The position numbers were made by a program, and so were the translations under genes. A DNA stretch of 48,437 bases, taken from Candidatus Omnitrophota bacterium. Lineage in GTDB: Bacteria; Omnitrophota; Omnitrophia; Omnitrophales; Aquincolibacteriaceae. Where the stretch lies: positions 1-48,437 of the forward strand of contig PLLJ01000008.1 in NCBI GenBank assembly GCA_003140935.1, given 5' to 3'. Every line of letters begins with the position of its first letter. Within the stretch, counting starts at the first letter, position 1. This document shows positions 7,915 to 47,998 of the stretch, piece by piece. Below the pieces are notes generated by a model that saw nothing but the letters and a program-made list of their open reading frames with translations, made no database searches and was not told the DNA's origin.

Positions 7915-8598
7915 TTACCTGAGGCAGGACATAAAGGCGGGGATGTCGGTTAGATCTTGAAGAATGTGGTCCGGCGGATCTTTCCTGAAGTGTTCCCGGT
8001 TTCTGCCGTTGGTGAGCACGGCGATGCTTTTGAGTCCGGATTTTTTGGCGGCCGCGATGTCGTATTCAGTGTCTCCGATCACGAAGACCCTGTGTTTCTC
8101 AAAATGTTCGCGGGCGAGTTCTTCTGAATAGGCTATCGCCGCGAGGAGGATCTGGTGGCGTTCCCTGGCATCATTTCCGAATCCGCCGGTTAAAAAGTAG
8201 TGTTCGACCGCGCCGCGCTTGAGTTTCATGCGCCCGGCTCGTTCAAAGTTACCGGTGGCGAGTGCGAGGAAGATGCCCGGATCCCGGGAGAGATATTCCA
8301 GGATCTCGATAACGCCCGGCATCAGTTCGAAACGCGATGACTCTTGGATCCGCTCTTCAAAGATCTCTTCGTAGCGGTCCATCAAAAGTTCAAATTCTCC
8401 CGGAGAAAGCAACCGGCCAAGTTTGCGCTGGGCCACTTCATCGAAAATGGCCGGGTCCGTCTTCCCATGAGGGTCGAGGTTGCCCCAAGCGTTGGGGATC
8501 TCGAAGATCTCCTCAAAGGCCTCCTCAAAAGCGATCTTACCGGCGCCACCGGTGAGCAAGAGTGTCCCGTCGATATCAAAAAGAAGAAGTTTTTTCAT
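7915..8598 (-). CDS. HAD superfamily phosphatase (Gph/phosphoglycolate-phosphatase-like)
   Basis: The only clear minus-strand gene. The 227-residue product begins MKKLLLFDIDGTLL with motif I (nucleophile Asp8 and acid Asp10), an alpha-helical C1 cap, motif II in LALATGN, and motif IV in VIGDTEYDIAAAKKSG. These are the features of HAD hydrolases of the Gph/PgmB group; the substrate could be phosphoglycolate, a sugar phosphate or a nucleotide and cannot be fixed. I chose the ATG at 8598 because motif I then sits at the usual place; an in-frame start 20 codons upstream would run through the first hairpin repeat. The start codon itself lies in the arm of that hairpin, so initiation may be affected by folding. 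Confidence 0.85.
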   Translation of the reverse strand: MKKLLLFDIDGTLLLTGGAGKIAFEEAFEEIFEIPNAWGNLDPHGKTDPAIFDEVAQRKLGRLLSPGEFELLMDRYEEIFEERIQESSRFELMPGVIEILEYLSRDPGIFLALATGNFERAGRMKLKRGAVEHYFLTGGFGNDARERHQILLAAIAYSEELAREHFEKHRVFVIGDTEYDIAAAKKSGLKSIAVLTNGRNREHFRKDPPDHILQDLTDIPAFMSCLR

Positions 8599-8650
8599 GG
8601 CGCCCAAGTCTTTATTTTCTTTTTTTGAACGGTGACTTGGGCTGTCATGA
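8595..8650 (+). repeat. Hairpin repeat unit, copy A
   Basis: First of five related hairpins. The inner arms GCCCAAGTC (8602-8610) and GACTTGGGC (8634-8642) pair perfectly around a 23-base pyrimidine-rich loop that starts TTTATTTTCTTTT. A single unpaired T at 8643 is followed by an outer stem (TCATGGC against GTCATGA, one G-T pair). The downstream part resembles the tail of copy E (ATTTATTTTTT, then GGAGGATCATG). It overlaps the start codon of the HAD gene on the other strand. Confidence 0.75.
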
Positions 8651-8728
8651 TTTCCCATTTATTTTTTCGATGGAGGATCATGGATGGAATTTTATCATGG
8701 GGTTGAAAAAAAGGTATGCTATATTACC

Positions 8729-8777
8729 GTCCAAGTCTTTGTCTCCTTTTCATGGATGCCGATTTGGGCAGTCATGA
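8729..8777 (+). repeat. Hairpin repeat unit, copy B
   Basis: The arms GTCCAAGTC (8729-8737) and GATTTGGGC (8761-8769) still pair along all nine positions, two of them as G-T pairs, around a 23-base loop beginning TTTGTCTCCTTTT. The unpaired A and GTCATGA follow as in the other copies, but the left outer arm has decayed. Followed directly by copy C. Confidence 0.75.
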
Positions 8778-8807
8778 TAACTGATTCATTTTTAAATTAA
8801 GGAAAAT

Positions 8808-8882
8808 CATGGCGTCCATGTCTCTTTGCTTTAGTTTCATCAACGTTGGCTTGGACGGCCCCCATTTCAATTCCATTGAAAT
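8808..8882 (+). repeat. Hairpin repeat unit, copy C, plus a second small hairpin
   Basis: A diverged copy headed by AAGGAAAATCATGGCG. Arms GTCCATGTC (8814-8822) and GGCTTGGAC (8848-8856) pair with one mismatch around a 25-base loop. It is followed by a separate perfect hairpin, ATTTCAAT at 8864-8871 and ATTGAAAT at 8875-8882 with a TCC loop, ending 21 bases before the MFS start at 8904. Both could influence translation of the transporter gene. Confidence 0.65.
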
Positions 8883-15527: not shown

Positions 15528-15558
15528 GAGTGTGGCGACGGATTCAGGAGAATCATTT

Positions 15559-15606
15559 CACCCAAGTCTTTATTTCCTTTTGTTTGATCGATGGCGACTT
15601 GGACTG
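15559..15606 (+). repeat. Hairpin repeat unit, copy D
   Basis: The core arms CCAAGTC (15562-15568) and GACTTGG (15596-15602) pair perfectly around a 27-base loop starting TTTATTTCCTTTT; the outer stem is mostly lost. The tail GGTTTCGATTCCATT resembles the tail of copy C (ATTTCAATTCCATT), showing that the units share more than the stem. Copy E follows directly. Confidence 0.7.
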
Positions 15607-15633
15607 CCAAGGTTTCGATTCCATTTTTTGAGC

Positions 15634-15720
15634 AAGGAAAATCATGACGTCCAAGTCTTTGTTTTCTTTTCATAAGGGACGACTTGGACAGTCATAATTA
15701 TCGATTTATTTTTAATTGAG
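15634..15720 (+). repeat. Hairpin repeat unit, copy E (best preserved)
   Basis: A head AAGGAAAATCATGACG leads into arms GTCCAAGTC (15649-15657) and GACTTGGAC (15681-15689), with an unpaired A at 15690 and an outer stem ATGAC (15644-15648) against GTCAT (15691-15695). Total stem 14 pairs, loop 23 bases. The unit ends with an AT-rich tail and GAGGAAAATTATGACG, which is the ribosome site and start of the metal-efflux gene and nearly repeats the head of the unit. Confidence 0.8.
15644..15697 (+). CDS. Possible 17-residue leader peptide inside hairpin copy E
   Basis: ATG at 15644 with AAGGA seven bases upstream opens a 17-codon frame (MTSKSLFSFHKGRLGQS) that spans the whole hairpin and stops 30 bases before the metal-efflux start. 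The matching frame in copy B reads SKSLSPFHGCRFGQS before a stop but lacks the ATG. The similarity may be only a by-product of the DNA repeat. Offered as a candidate leader peptide, weakly supported. Confidence 0.22.
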   Translation: MTSKSLFSFHKGRLGQS

Positions 15721-15727
15721 GAAAATT

Positions 15728-16615
15728 ATGACGAACGAAGGGATGCAGCAATACCTGAAGGAGGCCCGGCAGGCGATCATCCTGTCTGTGGGGATTGCCT
15801 CACTTTTGACCCTCGTAAAGTTCTCAGCCGGACTTATGACGCATTCTATGGCGATCATGGCATCGGCCTTGGATTCCACGCTGGACATGATGATGTCGGC
15901 ATTGAATTTTTTCGCGTTCCAGGTTGCTTCCAAACCTCCCGATGATGAACACGCTTATGGCCATGGAAAGGTCGAGAGCCTTGCCTCTCTTTTTCAAAGT
16001 CTTTTTATCGGAGCCAGCGGTTCTTTTGTGATTGTGGAGGCCGTGAAGCGGCTGATTCATGGGAGTTATGTTTCAGATATCGGACTGGGGATCGGCGTGG
16101 TCGTTTTTTCCGGGATCGCAACGGCTCTCCTTTCATGGCGCCTGAATAATCTTTCCAGGAGGAACCAGTCACTTATTCTCAGGACGGAAAAGGCGCATTA
16201 TTCCATGGATTTTTTTTCCTATATCGGAGTGATCGCGGCGCTGGCTCTCGTTGGGTGGACGGGAAGTGTCATTTGGGACCTGATCGTGTCAATACTCGTG
16301 GCAGCTTATATCTTTAAAGAGGCGGTCCATATTTTAAAACGAGCCATATCGGAACTTTTGGATCGGGGGCTTTCAAACACCGAGCTTAAAATGGTGAAAA
16401 TGCTTATCCTCCAGCACCATCCGGCGATCGTAGGAGTGCATGGCCTTCGAAGCCGTGTGGTCGGCAACCAGTTGTTCCTGGATTTTCATATTGAGATCCG
16501 GGGTGAGGATAATTTTAAACGGGCGCACGAGATGACCGAATCTCTGATCGATAAGATCAAAATCCACCATCCCAACGCGGATGTGACGGTCCATTTCGAT
16601 CCGGAAGGAGAATAG
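15728..16615 (+). CDS. Cation diffusion facilitator, FieF-like Fe/Zn exporter
   Basis: A 295-residue CDF-family antiporter with six membrane helices and a cytoplasmic C-terminal domain. Transport-site residues match the FieF pattern: D49-x3-D53 in ALDSTLD (helix 2) and H157-x3-D161 in AHYSMD (helix 5), so divalent iron or zinc is likely; DDEHAYGHGKVESLA also matches FieF. I chose ATG 15728, with GAGG eight bases upstream; a TTG at 15716 is an alternative. Two hairpin repeats lie just upstream, and an OmpR-type regulator and sensor kinase follow 9 bases after the stop, suggesting a metal-responsive module. Confidence 0.92.
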   Translation: MTNEGMQQYLKEARQAIILSVGIASLLTLVKFSAGLMTHSMAIMASALDSTLDMMMSALNFFAFQVASKPPDDEHAYGHGKVESLASLFQSLFIGASGSFVIVEAVKRLIHGSYVSDIGLGIGVVVFSGIATALLSWRLNNLSRRNQSLILRTEKAHYSMDFFSYIGVIAALALVGWTGSVIWDLIVSILVAAYIFKEAVHILKRAISELLDRGLSNTELKMVKMLILQHHPAIVGVHGLRSRVVGNQLFLDFHIEIRGEDNFKRAHEMTESLIDKIKIHHPNADVTVHFDPEGE

Positions 16616-42936: not shown

Positions 42937-42983
42937 TTCTAAAGAAGTTTACTGTACGCTCTGTGCCGTACCGGGACCCTGAG

Positions 42984-45176
42984 ATGAAAGACCTTCTTGC
43001 CAGTTTGAATGTTTCTCAAAAAGAAGCGGTCACCTGGCCTCCGGTCCGGCCGCTGCTTGTTCTGGCCGGGGCGGGAAGCGGGAAAACGCGCATTCTCACA
43101 CACCGGATCGCCTATTTGATCGAACACGGCGTGCCAGCTTTTAATATCCTCGGGGTGACCTTTACGAACAAGGCCGCACAGGAAATGCGCAACCGCATCG
43201 AAAAACTTGTTTCCCAACGGGTATGGGTAAGTACATTCCATTCCACCTGCCTTCGCATCCTCCGCCAGGACGGGCCCGCTATAGAAATCGATCGGAATTT
43301 CATCATCTACGACGAATACGATCAACTCCAAGTGATCAAAGAGTGTATCGCGGAACTCAAGCTGAACGAGAAGGATGTGAACCCCAAGGCCGCGCGTGAG
43401 GAGATCCAGCGTTCGAAAGATTATCTCGTTTCCCCCGCCCAATACTTGGCGAAGGCGACGGATCTTTTTGAAGATCACGTGGGGAAGGTCTATCAGCTTT
43501 ATGAAACCCGGATGAAACGGCTCAAGGCGTGTGATTTTGGGGACCTTATCATGAAAACCGTGGTGCTTTTTAACAAGAATCCCCAAGTGCTCAAGACCTG
43601 GCAGGACCGTTTTCAGCATGTTCTGATCGATGAGTACCAGGATACGAACCATGCGCAATACCGCTTTGTGAAACTCCTGGCCTCCGCAAGGCGTCAGATC
43701 ACCGTCGTAGGGGACCCGGACCAATCCATTTATGCGTGGCGCGGAGCGGACATCAAGAATATCCTCAATTTTGAAGGGGATTATCCGGAATCCGGTGCGA
43801 TCAGGATGGAGCAGAACTATCGCTCCACGCCCGTGATCCTTGAAGCGGCGAACCATCTGATCAAGAACAATCAGATGCGCAAGCCCAAGGAGCTTTGGAC
43901 CGAGCAGAAGGGCGGTGCGAAGATAGAGCTCTTTAATGCGGAAGATGAGAGCGCGGAGGCCCAATATGTGACCGGCAACGTTTTGAAATACAAGGCCCAG
44001 GGCCGCAGCTTTGCGGATCAGGTGATCTTTTACCGCGTTCACGCTCAATCGCGTGTCATGGAAGAAGAGCTGATGCGCGCGAACATTCCCTACAAGATCG
44101 TGGGAGGAACGCGTTTCTATGACCGTAAGGAGATCAAGGATGTCATCGCTTATCTCCGGATCATCGCCTATGCCTATGATGAAGTAAGTCTGAAGCGCGT
44201 TATCAACGTGCCGCCGCGAGGGATCGGGAAGAAAGCGATGGAAATACTTGAAAATGCGGTCGCCAATATCATGGGGACTCGAATTTTACAAAGCGAGGAA
44301 ACAAACGAGTCCCGAGCGACGAGTCCCGAGTCCCAATTTTCGTCTGATGCCCCGTGGGATGCCGTGCTAGAGAATGCCGGGGCCATCGAAGGATTAACCC
44401 CGCGTGTTAAAAAGAGCCTTGGCGCTTTCTATGCCTGGCTGACGAAGCTCCGGAAAAAGCAGCATGCGTTGACGGTCCACGAGATCCTGGAGCGGATCCT
44501 GGAGGATACGGGGTATGTTGCGGAGCTTGAGGCTGAACGGACTCCGGAGGCCCAGGCCCGTCTTGAGAATATCGAGGAGTTTTTTAGCGTGATCGAGGAC
44601 TTTACGGAAAGGGGGGATTCGGGGTTCGGGACTCGGGACTTGAGAAAACAGGAAATTCCCACGAGTCCCGAGGAATTAGTTTCAAGCCCTCCGGCAAGCT
44701 CGCTGCGAGCGTTTCTCGACTCGATCGAGCTTGTGACCGACCTCGACGCCTGGGACCAAGGGACGAACGTGCTCACACTGATGACGCTTCATACGGCTAA
44801 GGGGCTGGAGTTCCCGATCGTCCACATGGTCGGCATGGAGGAGGGGATCTTCCCGCACGTGAATTCTTTTGTGGGCCCGTCAGACGAGATCGAAGAAGAA
44901 CGGCGGCTTTGTTACGTGGGTATCACGCGTGCCCGGGAGAAATTACATCTTTCCTATGCAACCCAACGGCGCATGTACGGTGCCATGCATCACAATCTTC
45001 CATCCCGGTTCTTAAATGAGATCCCCCCAGATCTTTACGATATCCGGGTCCTGCATTCCGGGAGTGGCTACCGGGATGAAGACGAAGACCAGGACCGCAC
45101 GGGTCATTCCATCCACGATACCGTCATCGAATTCGATGATGATTCCCCATCCTCGCCGGGCCGTTATTCCCGCTGA
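42984..45176 (+). CDS. pcrA: UvrD/PcrA-type superfamily 1 DNA helicase
   Basis: A 730-residue 3'-5' helicase for repair and replication restart. Motif I GAGSGKT (29-35), Ia TFTNKAAQEM, II DEYQD (216-220), III GDPDQSIYAWRGA, IV EQNYRST, V TLHTAKGLEFP and VI VGITRARE are complete. Two tracts in the 2B region (~431-450 and ~545-563) consist of translated GGGACTCG/CGAGTCCC repeats and look inserted. I chose ATG 42984; a GTG at 42963 would add seven residues. Confidence 0.95.
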   Translation: MKDLLASLNVSQKEAVTWPPVRPLLVLAGAGSGKTRILTHRIAYLIEHGVPAFNILGVTFTNKAAQEMRNRIEKLVSQRVWVSTFHSTCLRILRQDGPAIEIDRNFIIYDEYDQLQVIKECIAELKLNEKDVNPKAAREEIQRSKDYLVSPAQYLAKATDLFEDHVGKVYQLYETRMKRLKACDFGDLIMKTVVLFNKNPQVLKTWQDRFQHVLIDEYQDTNHAQYRFVKLLASARRQITVVGDPDQSIYAWRGADIKNILNFEGDYPESGAIRMEQNYRSTPVILEAANHLIKNNQMRKPKELWTEQKGGAKIELFNAEDESAEAQYVTGNVLKYKAQGRSFADQVIFYRVHAQSRVMEEELMRANIPYKIVGGTRFYDRKEIKDVIAYLRIIAYAYDEVSLKRVINVPPRGIGKKAMEILENAVANIMGTRILQSEETNESRATSPESQFSSDAPWDAVLENAGAIEGLTPRVKKSLGAFYAWLTKLRKKQHALTVHEILERILEDTGYVAELEAERTPEAQARLENIEEFFSVIEDFTERGDSGFGTRDLRKQEIPTSPEELVSSPPASSLRAFLDSIELVTDLDAWDQGTNVLTLMTLHTAKGLEFPIVHMVGMEEGIFPHVNSFVGPSDEIEEERRLCYVGITRAREKLHLSYATQRRMYGAMHHNLPSRFLNEIPPDLYDIRVLHSGSGYRDEDEDQDRTGHSIHDTVIEFDDDSPSSPGRYSR
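44274..44334. repeat. Palindromic repeat insertion 1 inside pcrA
   Basis: GGGACTCG (44274-44281) is followed by CGAGTCCC at 44306-44313, 44320-44327 and 44327-44334 (the last two share one base), so the tract can fold into alternative hairpins. It is translated in frame as MGTRILQ…ESRATSPES, in a linker of the 2B domain. The same 8-mer pair recurs 300 bases on. Confidence 0.65.
44628..44672. repeat. Palindromic repeat insertion 2 inside pcrA
   Basis: GGGACTCG (44628-44635) continues as CTCGGGACTTG (44632-44642), which pairs at ten of eleven positions with CGAGTCCCGAG (44662-44672). It is translated in frame (GDSGFGTRDL…TSPEEL) in a flexible region just before conserved helicase motif V. The arms are the same sequence family as in insertion 1. 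Confidence 0.65.
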
Positions 45177-46121: not shown

Positions 46122-46862
46122 TTGAAGATACTGACATTGAATACCTGGCAGGAGCGTGGGCCGTGGCGCGACCGGTGGGAGCTTATTCTCAAAGGCCTTA
46201 AGGAATACGCTGCCGACATCGTAGGTTTGCAGGAAGTTTTCAATATGGACTGGGCCAGGGAAATCCACAAACGGAGCGGGTATCCCTATCTTGCCGTGAG
46301 CGGCGAACATTCCGGACTGATCTTTCTTTCGAAATTCAAACCCGTCGAACAAGAATGCCTGGTCATGGCAACGAAGTCGCCTACCGAGGATTATCTTCGC
46401 TATGTTTTTTATCTCCAAGTCGATACGGGTGGAGCGAAAGTCGCGCTTTTTGACACGCACCTTTCATGGAAGGCTGATGAGAACGAGATCCGCCTGAGGC
46501 AGACCATGGAGCTTGGGACGTTTGTGCAGAAGAAGTCCGGTGATCTTTCCATGGCGCTCATGGGAGATCTTAATGCGGGACCGGACACGCCCTCCGTCAC
46601 TTATCTTCGGGAGACGTTGAAATGGTGCGATACCTTTGGTGCGAAGCATCCGGGGGAAGCGGGATGGACCTGGGATTACCGGAATCCTTATGCGGAAGCG
46701 GAGCGGGAGAAGATGGCCGAGCGGCGTATCGATTATATTTTTATCCGCGAGCAAAGGGGGCTTTTCGAGAAGATAAGATCCTCACGTATCGTTTTTAACA
46801 AGCCGTCGGAAAAAGGCGTCTATCCCTCGGACCATTTCGGCGTAATGACCGAGTTCAATTGA
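46122..46862 (+). CDS. Endonuclease/exonuclease/phosphatase (EEP) family hydrolase
   Basis: A 246-residue EEP-fold metal hydrolase. MKILTLNTWQ (Asn), VGLQEV (Glu), GDLNAGPDTPS (Asp, Asn), RRIDYIFIR and SDHFGVM (Asp-His) are the catalytic blocks. Members cleave DNA, phospholipids or small phosphodiesters; with plsC beside it a phosphodiesterase on a lipid or sugar is imaginable but unproven. Start TTG 46122 is supported by GAGG seven bases upstream. No signal peptide seen, so it is probably cytoplasmic. Confidence 0.9.
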   Translation: MKILTLNTWQERGPWRDRWELILKGLKEYAADIVGLQEVFNMDWAREIHKRSGYPYLAVSGEHSGLIFLSKFKPVEQECLVMATKSPTEDYLRYVFYLQVDTGGAKVALFDTHLSWKADENEIRLRQTMELGTFVQKKSGDLSMALMGDLNAGPDTPSVTYLRETLKWCDTFGAKHPGEAGWTWDYRNPYAEAEREKMAERRIDYIFIREQRGLFEKIRSSRIVFNKPSEKGVYPSDHFGVMTEFN

Positions 46863-46864
46863 CT

Positions 46865-47998
46865 ATGGAGCCTGCAGACCTGAAAGCGAAAGAATATCAG
46901 ATCATCCGCCGCAGGTTTTCGCTTTTCCAGCTCGTTCTTACACCCGCGCTTCTCGGGATATTGATCGCAAGCGGGTGGACGTTCGGGATGCGCCAGAATG
47001 CCATTGGATTCGCCGGGGCCCATGATGCTGGCGTTGTGGCGGCCTATTTTTTACTTTTCTCCCTTTTTTTCCTGATCTTCGATCTGCCGCTCGCGTTCTA
47101 TTCGGGATTTGTACTGGAGCATCAATTCGGTCTTTCGAATCAGAACTTCAGTCAGTGGCTTTTGGATCTCGGAAAGAAAACGCTTCTTTCGTTCGGATTG
47201 TCGCTCGCGCTCCTGGAGTGTCTTTACCTGATCATTCGTATGGATCACGCGCATTGGTGGATCTGGGCGTGGGCGGCCTACGCTTTTGTGAGCTATGTCC
47301 TCGGGAAGGTCTTCCCGGTCTTGATCGTGCCGCTTTTTTACAAATATGGTAGGCTTGAAGATAAGGAGCTGGAAGCGAAGGTCCTGAAGCTTGCCACGCG
47401 TTTTGACATGCCGGTCGGGAACGTCTATTCACTCAATTTGAGCAAAACGACCAAGAAGGCGAATGCTGCATTTATGGGGATCGGGAGAACCAAGCGGGTG
47501 GTCTTAAGCGATACGCTCATCCAGAACTTCACGCACGCTGAAGTGGAGGTGGTCGTGGCGCACGAACTGGGCCATTATAAGCACCGCGATGTTTGGCGGC
47601 TTCTGGCGTTTGGCCTCGCGGTTTCGCTTGCCGCGTTTGCCTCCGGGTTTTGGGGAATGAACGCCCTTGCACCCAAGCTGTCTTTGAATTCTCCGGCGGA
47701 TGTGGCGGGCCTACCCCTGCTTTTCTTGATCTTTTATGCCGTTCATCTGGTTCTGATGCCGGTCATGAACGGATATTCCAGGCGGCGGGAGCGGGCGGCT
47801 GATATTTTTGCATTGAACGCGCTTGAGACGCGGGAGGTTTTTATCGCTTGCATGAAAAAATTAGGCGAGCAGAATCTCGCGGATCCCGAGCCTCCGGCGT
47901 GGTATGAATGGTTCTTTTATGACCATCCGTCGATCGCCAAACGTATTGAAATGGCTGGAAAATGGACGACAGACCACAGATCGAAGACGACGGCCTGA
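46865..47998 (+). CDS. M48 (Ste24/CAAX-protease-like) membrane metalloprotease
   Basis: A 377-residue zinc protease with several membrane helices. The active site HELGH lies at 233-237 and the third ligand Glu309 in RRRERAADIFAL. The N-terminal domain with FSGFVLEHQFGLS-like and YKYGRLED blocks is characteristic of the Ste24/CAAX type rather than HtpX. In bacteria such proteases probably act in membrane quality control. It begins 2 bases after the EEP gene; ATG 46865 is preferred over TTG 46859. Confidence 0.92.
   Translation: MEPADLKAKEYQIIRRRFSLFQLVLTPALLGILIASGWTFGMRQNAIGFAGAHDAGVVAAYFLLFSLFFLIFDLPLAFYSGFVLEHQFGLSNQNFSQWLLDLGKKTLLSFGLSLALLECLYLIIRMDHAHWWIWAWAAYAFVSYVLGKVFPVLIVPLFYKYGRLEDKELEAKVLKLATRFDMPVGNVYSLNLSKTTKKANAAFMGIGRTKRVVLSDTLIQNFTHAEVEVVVAHELGHYKHRDVWRLLAFGLAVSLAAFASGFWGMNALAPKLSLNSPADVAGLPLLFLIFYAVHLVLMPVMNGYSRRRERAADIFALNALETREVFIACMKKLGEQNLADPEPPAWYEWFFYDHPSIAKRIEMAGKWTTDHRSKTTA

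Follow-up and report, generated by a model that had tools for sequence, protein, structure and literature searches.

In-frame heptamer-built palindromic tracts in a PcrA-type helicase gene of Candidatus Omnitrophota, and a dispersed repeat family of the same build

How do palindromic repeats come to lie inside the reading frame of a helicase, and do they belong to a family that occurs elsewhere in the same genome? This question is raised by a contig of 48,437 bases (C49, hereafter the window) from the draft genome of a Candidatus Omnitrophota bacterium (G000; 2.40 Mb in 55 contigs, 91% complete and 2.6% contaminated). The relevant features are the following:

42963..45176, plus strand: pcrA/uvrD helicase gene, 737 codons, with a GTG start as listed
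44274..44334, plus strand: tract 1, a heptamer-built palindromic repeat with one plus arm, an A-rich loop and three minus arms; about residues 438–458
44274..44313, no strand assigned: hairpin core of tract 1, arms 44274–44281 and 44306–44313
44614..44669, plus strand: tract 2, a heptamer-built palindromic repeat consisting of GGGATTC-GGGGTTC-GGGACTC-GGGACTT, a loop, and then CGAGTCCC; about residues 551–569
44628..44669, no strand assigned: hairpin core of tract 2, arms 44628–44635 and 44662–44669

Two tracts within the helicase gene

An earlier note on this DNA had described two tracts of palindromic 8-mer arms inside the helicase gene. The tracts are where it placed them, and the six copies of GGGACTCG present on both strands of the window (two forward and four as CGAGTCCC) all lie within them, between 44274 and 44669; the arms, however, are asymmetric, and what is repeated is a heptamer and not a palindromic 8-mer. 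With the pattern used, three plus-type arms and one minus arm are recognised in tract 2, a fourth, overlapping unit being GGGACTT; neither tract is a clean symmetrical palindrome, since the plus and minus arms are unequal in number (1+3 and 3+1). Dinucleotide shuffles of the whole window contain on average 2.19 copies of GGGACTCG, and 3 of 100 shuffles reach six; the clustering within 396 bases, together with the genome-wide counts given below, is far stronger evidence than this window-level count. Both pcrA copies fold weakly when compared with shuffles (z of -1.0 and -0.3), and a quadruplex pattern is matched by tract 2 with its flanks and not by tract 1. An Rfam search of four loci gave zero matches at the gathering score, and one weak sub-threshold match located outside the tracts.

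The same note had also proposed that the tracts add Ser/Thr/Arg/Glu-rich linkers in frame and leave the helicase unbroken, and the translation bears this out. The tract peptides, GTRILQSEETNESRATSPESQ and GFGTRDLRKQEIPTSPEE, include GTRD, TSPES and TSPEE, the reading frame is uninterrupted across both tracts, and the 737-residue protein gives full matches to the Pfam domains UvrD-helicase (residues 15–275) and UvrD_C (residues 280–667), the latter of which contains both tracts. The closest named relatives of this protein come from Candidatus Omnitrophota metagenome bins, with 62% and 60% identity. When it is aligned to the solved PcrA 1pjr, the tracts appear as unaligned gaps at 430–452 and 526–529 of the 1pjr chain, in a stretch that we take to be the 2B domain of PcrA.

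A model of the protein obtained with AlphaFold2 from a 39-sequence alignment reached a mean pLDDT of 81.6 and a pTM of 0.63. Around tract 1 the pLDDT fell to 58 (residues 441–450) and 47 (451–460), and around tract 2 to 44, 45 and 54 (551–560, 561–570 and 571–580), against 75–85 for the neighbouring blocks. The tracts were modelled mostly as coil between confident helices, and the helix that precedes tract 1 continues to residue 446. This predicted low-confidence coil fits an insertion in tolerant loops.

Copy number and anatomy of the repeat

The earlier note had suggested counting the 8-mer pair genome-wide, and had named a lack of other genomic copies as the outcome that would speak against a proliferating element; the count revealed instead a repeat dispersed across the source genome. 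The 8-mer occurs 253 times (77 for the control), the 14-mer CGGGACTCGGGACT 26 times against 0 for its reversed, not complemented, control, and the hairpin formed by GGGACTNG, a spacer of 8–38 nt and CNAGTCCC gives 57 matches against 0 in the control on each strand, some of them nested, so that the sites are fewer than 57. In a 448 kb sample of this genome (21 pieces, i.e., the window and 20 stretches picked by contig position) there are 13 clusters of at least two arms, about 29 per Mb. Counted likewise, 160 kb of G001, a second species of the genus, yielded 18 clusters, and 100 kb of G005 and 140 kb of G021 yielded none.

The anatomy was defined on 67 clusters from 41 sources, namely the window, 30 G000 stretches chosen for the elements known to lie in them, and 10 stretches of the G001 contig C1. 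Hairpins account for 56 of these clusters, which were selected partly by that shape. A typical copy reads GGGACTCG-TTCCTCGGGACTCG-(T-rich loop)-CGAGTCCC-GAGGAACGAGTCCC, and measures 50–85 nt, with one to four seven-base units per arm, a T-rich loop of about 19 nt and the inverted arm; among the 56 hairpins the outermost arms span a median of 68–69 nt, and the loop is 18–21 nt long in half (28/56). The arm units are mainly GGGACTC, with the variants GGGACTA, GGGACTT and G(T/C)NNCTC, e.g., GTTCCTC and GTCGCTC, and the spacing between neighbouring arms on the same strand is a multiple of seven in 165 of 173 cases. Folded as single DNA strands and compared with shuffles, the hairpins gave a mean z of -3.1 for the 44 outside ORFs and -2.7 for the 12 inside them. 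A second motif, AAGCCAGTGCAG, precedes elements of both G000 and G001 (locus L148 at about 3033, L160 at about 3063 and 6049, and L145 at about 3031).

Two properties that could have been expected of such an element were discarded. One was that the arms are kept complementary by compensatory change: the identity of units within elements is 30% in the outer and 28% in the inner register, against 34% for shuffled partners. Since the units within a copy match no better than units taken from different copies, the pairing of the arms is a property of the family and is not maintained copy by copy. The other was that the heptamers make the element unusually free of stop codons. The consensus element is open in all six frames; nevertheless, real copies are no more open than dinucleotide shuffles, with 3.0 against 3.3 open frames per copy for the 44 outside ORFs and 3.9 against 4.0 for the 12 inside.

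From this evidence we consider it highly probable that both tracts belong to a palindromic repeat that is built of heptamers, dispersed and specific to this lineage, and that has spread within the genus and occasionally into coding sequence. The repeat would have spread through this Omnitrophota genus and now and then entered genes, where copies would survive only if they are in frame and in exposed, flexible loops, and the survivors would be translated as short disordered linkers. We infer that the repeat is mobile or is copied to other places, that the cell produces an active helicase carrying the inserts, and that the copies are close to neutral.

A different origin, quite unlikely in our view, is that the arrays are not a moving element but simple sequence repeats, which arose and lengthened in place as heptamers slipped during replication. 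The strict 7-nt register, the independent variation of the arm units and the occurrence of pure tandem (GGGACTC)n arrays elsewhere would all be expected from slippage, as would arrays lacking a target-site duplication or a linked transposase. Against it, the inverted pair with its recurring T-rich loop of about 19 nt, found at dozens of sites, requires the copying of whole units, and so does the excess of hairpin matches over the reversed pattern. Slippage may still edit the length of the arms. A general excess of period-7 tandems was not established: exact long runs number 1 in 448 kb of G000 and 3 in 160 kb of G001, and period-7 arrays, although numerous in the TRF output, are less common there than those of period 6.

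If the family is mobile, it could be a classical MITE or a REP moved by a RAYT or IS transposase. Elements of that kind are likewise short, palindromic and dispersed, and Y1 transposase genes are present in four of the six genomes of the genus. This assignment is unlikely nonetheless. The flank matches of the 56 hairpins were at or below those of permuted pairs and none reached 4 nt, with element boundaries uncertain by a few bases, so a target-site duplication appears to be absent. The GTAG and CGTC tags were not above chance in the 12-nt flanks (0–2 of the 56 hairpins per tag and side, against about 1.9 expected). Zero hairpins were located within about 1.5 kb on each side of any of the nine Y1 matches, and the number of Y1 genes (five in G004, two in G001 and one in G000) does not track the number of hairpins.

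Copies in other genes and the same loops in relatives

According to a crude ORF caller, 21 of the 56 hairpins lie in an ORF of at least 70 amino acids and 10 in one of at least 500; the remaining ones are found between genes of the same direction (21), between convergent (10) or divergent genes (3), or at an edge (1). The conserved genes that contain hairpins are pcrA (two copies), valS (one in G000 and two in G001) and a histidine kinase gene of G001, and arrays without the hairpin shape are present in gatB of G000 and in a second histidine kinase gene of G001. Pfam domains match across or beside the inserts in pcrA, valS, gatB and the histidine kinases; L145 and L152, which are large ORFs with copies, had zero Pfam matches. 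Two adjacent paralogous histidine kinase genes on the G001 contig C1 carry a GGGACTC repeat at the same place (L163:1569–1590 and L163:3063–3149), immediately ahead of the conserved portion of the ATPase domain, from which it follows that gene duplication or repeated insertion was involved.

Read in the direction of the gene, the loop is A-rich in eight of the ten copies within ORFs of at least 500 amino acids, T-rich in one and neutral in one, two of the ten being orthologous (valS). The whole contig C1 of G001, a set that overlaps the former, contains 26 hairpins, of which six are in candidate ORFs (three A-rich, one T-rich and two neutral). The T-rich strand would encode runs of Phe, Leu and Val, and the A-rich bias, seen in few copies, hints weakly at selection for a hydrophilic reading.

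The alignment of PcrA from relatives, also proposed in the earlier note, showed the tracts to be present in some and absent from others: G000 alone has tract 1 (1 of 28 aligned Omnitrophota PcrAs), G000 and G001 have tract 2 (2 of 28), and sister species have quite different inserts, or none, at these sites. The element pictured in that note as proliferating is a dispersed family that is presumed to move, with tract 2 common to one other species of the genus. The valS copy is located at one site in both genomes, with diverged sequence. In a tree of PcrA and ValS, G000 and G001 are not sisters; therefore the shared tract 2 and valS copy reflect either an old insertion followed by loss or repeat insertion at one site. 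The common family, with the same PcrA and valS sites and diverged sequence in G001, and the reading frames that stay open, make it hardly credible that the tracts are an assembly chimera or contamination, even for a draft with the contig number, completeness and contamination given above.

The distribution of the hairpin in the genus is patchy (57 matches in G000, 93 in G001, and 7, 1, 1 and 0 in the others). Across the phylum, 24 of 384 genomes have any match; on reading the sequences, a resemblance to the element is seen only in this genus and in g12, another genus of the family (14 in G023 and 2 in G025), and most single matches elsewhere look like chance. G190, with seven matches against six for the control, has a similar array that is G-tailed. 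Arrays of (GGGACTC)n are also present in 17 stretches of uncultivated viral contigs from IMG/VR (L325–L341), whose G+C ranges from 0.32 to 0.68, and three of these (L330, L337 and L338) have inverted arrays of several arms. The GGGACTC unit is not unique to this genus.

A second PcrA alignment, of 39 rows, provides a reference for the length of both loops. The 12 rows from other phyla all have a loop 1 of 21 residues; their loop 2 has 12–14 residues in 8 rows and 23–49 in the other 4, and is thus naturally variable in length. In an Eggerthellales bin, from an unrelated phylum (L203), a peptide repeat of the GETxxxxET type stretches loop 2 to 49 residues.

The tracts could also be selected functional linkers of the helicase, e.g., altering 2B control or partner contacts. 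It is true that both copies are in a regulatory region, that tract 2 is kept in two species, and that UvrD and repair proteins decorated by REPs are described for other bacteria in the account cited here (PMC3733652). The restriction of tract 1 to a single genome, the different inserts or none in sister species, the predicted disorder of the tracts and the presence of the same repeat between genes and in unrelated proteins make this explanation very unlikely.

The PcrA loops that contain the tracts also accept unrelated repeats in other genomes, which refines the earlier reading. In G007 both loop regions hold GTCATTCTGAG...GAATCT repeats, a family with 20 copies in that genome (control 0); pcrA itself contains two of the copies, and another two lie right next to the gene on its contig. 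Loop 1 of G025 has a GATTCCCGC...GCGGGAATGAC repeat, with three copies in that genome (control 0), and a 24-mer form of this repeat occurs 67 times in G036. As for ValS, G000 and G001 have the element in the zinc-loop site, where G037, G031, G036 and others have different sequence, the inserts of G037 and G036 having long stems, and the N-terminal linker has differing inserts in G001, G002, G003 and G004. For GACCACA-like inserts (peptides TDHRPQTTD and TSDQR; G002, G004 and G005), membership of a dispersed family could not be established; nine matches to CAGACCACAGACCA turned up in 30 genomes, and the single one in G004 is the pcrA copy itself. Among the inserted loops, the perfect stem was longer than in 95% of same-gene controls in 9 of 30 cases and not in the other 21, tract 1 included; the loops were extracted by regular expression, which retained 19/27, 24/27, 16/18 and 12/18 rows and mis-cut one pcrA_1 row (G019) to a length of 1.

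Two other repeats were noticed in the window. A GACCACA heptamer array detected by TRF at 47965–47980 forms the last codons of a peptidase-like ORF (46859–47998) that ends in TTDHRSKTTA, a kind of peptide also seen among the inserts that relatives have in PcrA and ValS. Imperfect repeats of about 76–78 nt, CGTCCAAGTCTTTG...GGGCAGTCATGAT, make up a different family, with clusters at 8595–8838 and 15553–15743.

Since relatives have unrelated repeats in the same loops of PcrA and ValS, these loops appear to be recurrent landing sites. A broader proposal, which we put forward as speculative and rather doubtful as a whole, is that a few exposed loops of essential proteins (the PcrA 2B loops, the ValS zinc loop and the ValS N-terminal linker) would be standing landing sites at which unrelated palindromic families replace each other over evolutionary time in Omnitrophota, and that the GGGACTC element would be mobile and modular, handled by an enzyme that reads the seven-base unit and not the whole hairpin. 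The seven-base unit is suggested as what the enzyme reads since the arm units hold the 7-nt register without co-varying.

Comparison with known repeat systems

Palindromes within coding sequence are best known from Rickettsia and Wolbachia, and intragenic REP cases occur elsewhere. An open-access literature search, judged by title and start of abstract, found no paper on palindromic repeats in Omnitrophota. Rickettsia palindromic elements (RPEs) are described in the cited accounts as dispersed, in frame in unrelated genes and tolerated in loops, with orthologous sites of related species able to hold different RPE groups (PMC10969869, PMC3767692). Compared by description, the Omnitrophota repeat is likewise a dispersed palindromic family, and the likeness to RPEs drawn in the earlier note is apt as a way of working, given the in-frame copies in valS, gatB and the histidine kinases. 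The two differ in length, RPEs having 100–150 bp and most Omnitrophota copies 50–85 nt, and also in the heptamer build and in the host, which is not a member of the Rickettsiales.

The unit itself resembles the GGGANTN heptamers of Xanthomonas and Nostoc, which, as summarised in the source, are dispersed, mostly intergenic, prefer four units and form G-quadruplexes, two Xanthomonas genomes having 70 and 75 convergent inverted pairs (PMC4692102). GGGACTC fits GGGANTN, and it is both tandem and dispersed; however, only 3 of the 67 clusters match a quadruplex pattern, so the preference for four units with quadruplex potential is not shared, and most clusters here consist of an inverted pair that encloses a short T-rich loop (56 of the 67, which were chosen partly by shape). 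The TAACTGA heptamers of Beggiatoaceae also form dispersed arrays with a patchy taxonomic spread and a heptapeptide reading; they are reported in the cited account as direct, located before start codons and with stop codons in one direction (PMC4679880), whereas the Omnitrophota arrays are inverted. For intragenic REPs of the GTAG and CGTC families, PMC3733652 describes cases in other bacteria where the gene encodes a UvrD/REP helicase or a tRNA synthetase; the Omnitrophota copies are similar in being short hairpins, some of them inside helicase and tRNA synthetase genes.

The earlier observation is confirmed and its interpretation supported, and the process that places palindromes in coding sequence would also run among the uncultured bacteria of this phylum, where the repeats are built of heptamers. 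The Rickettsia japonica paper, in the part relevant here, leaves open whether a site occupied by different RPE groups is a hot spot or reflects the divergence of a single insert; the present data bear on that question, as at least some of the PcrA and ValS loop inserts come from clearly different families. In these loops PcrA and ValS provide natural insertions, each of which could be tested separately, and the repeats are a possible source of new disordered protein segments. By its combination of heptamer arms, RPE-like coding insertion and loops filled by different families, the Omnitrophota case is filed as neither RPE nor REP.
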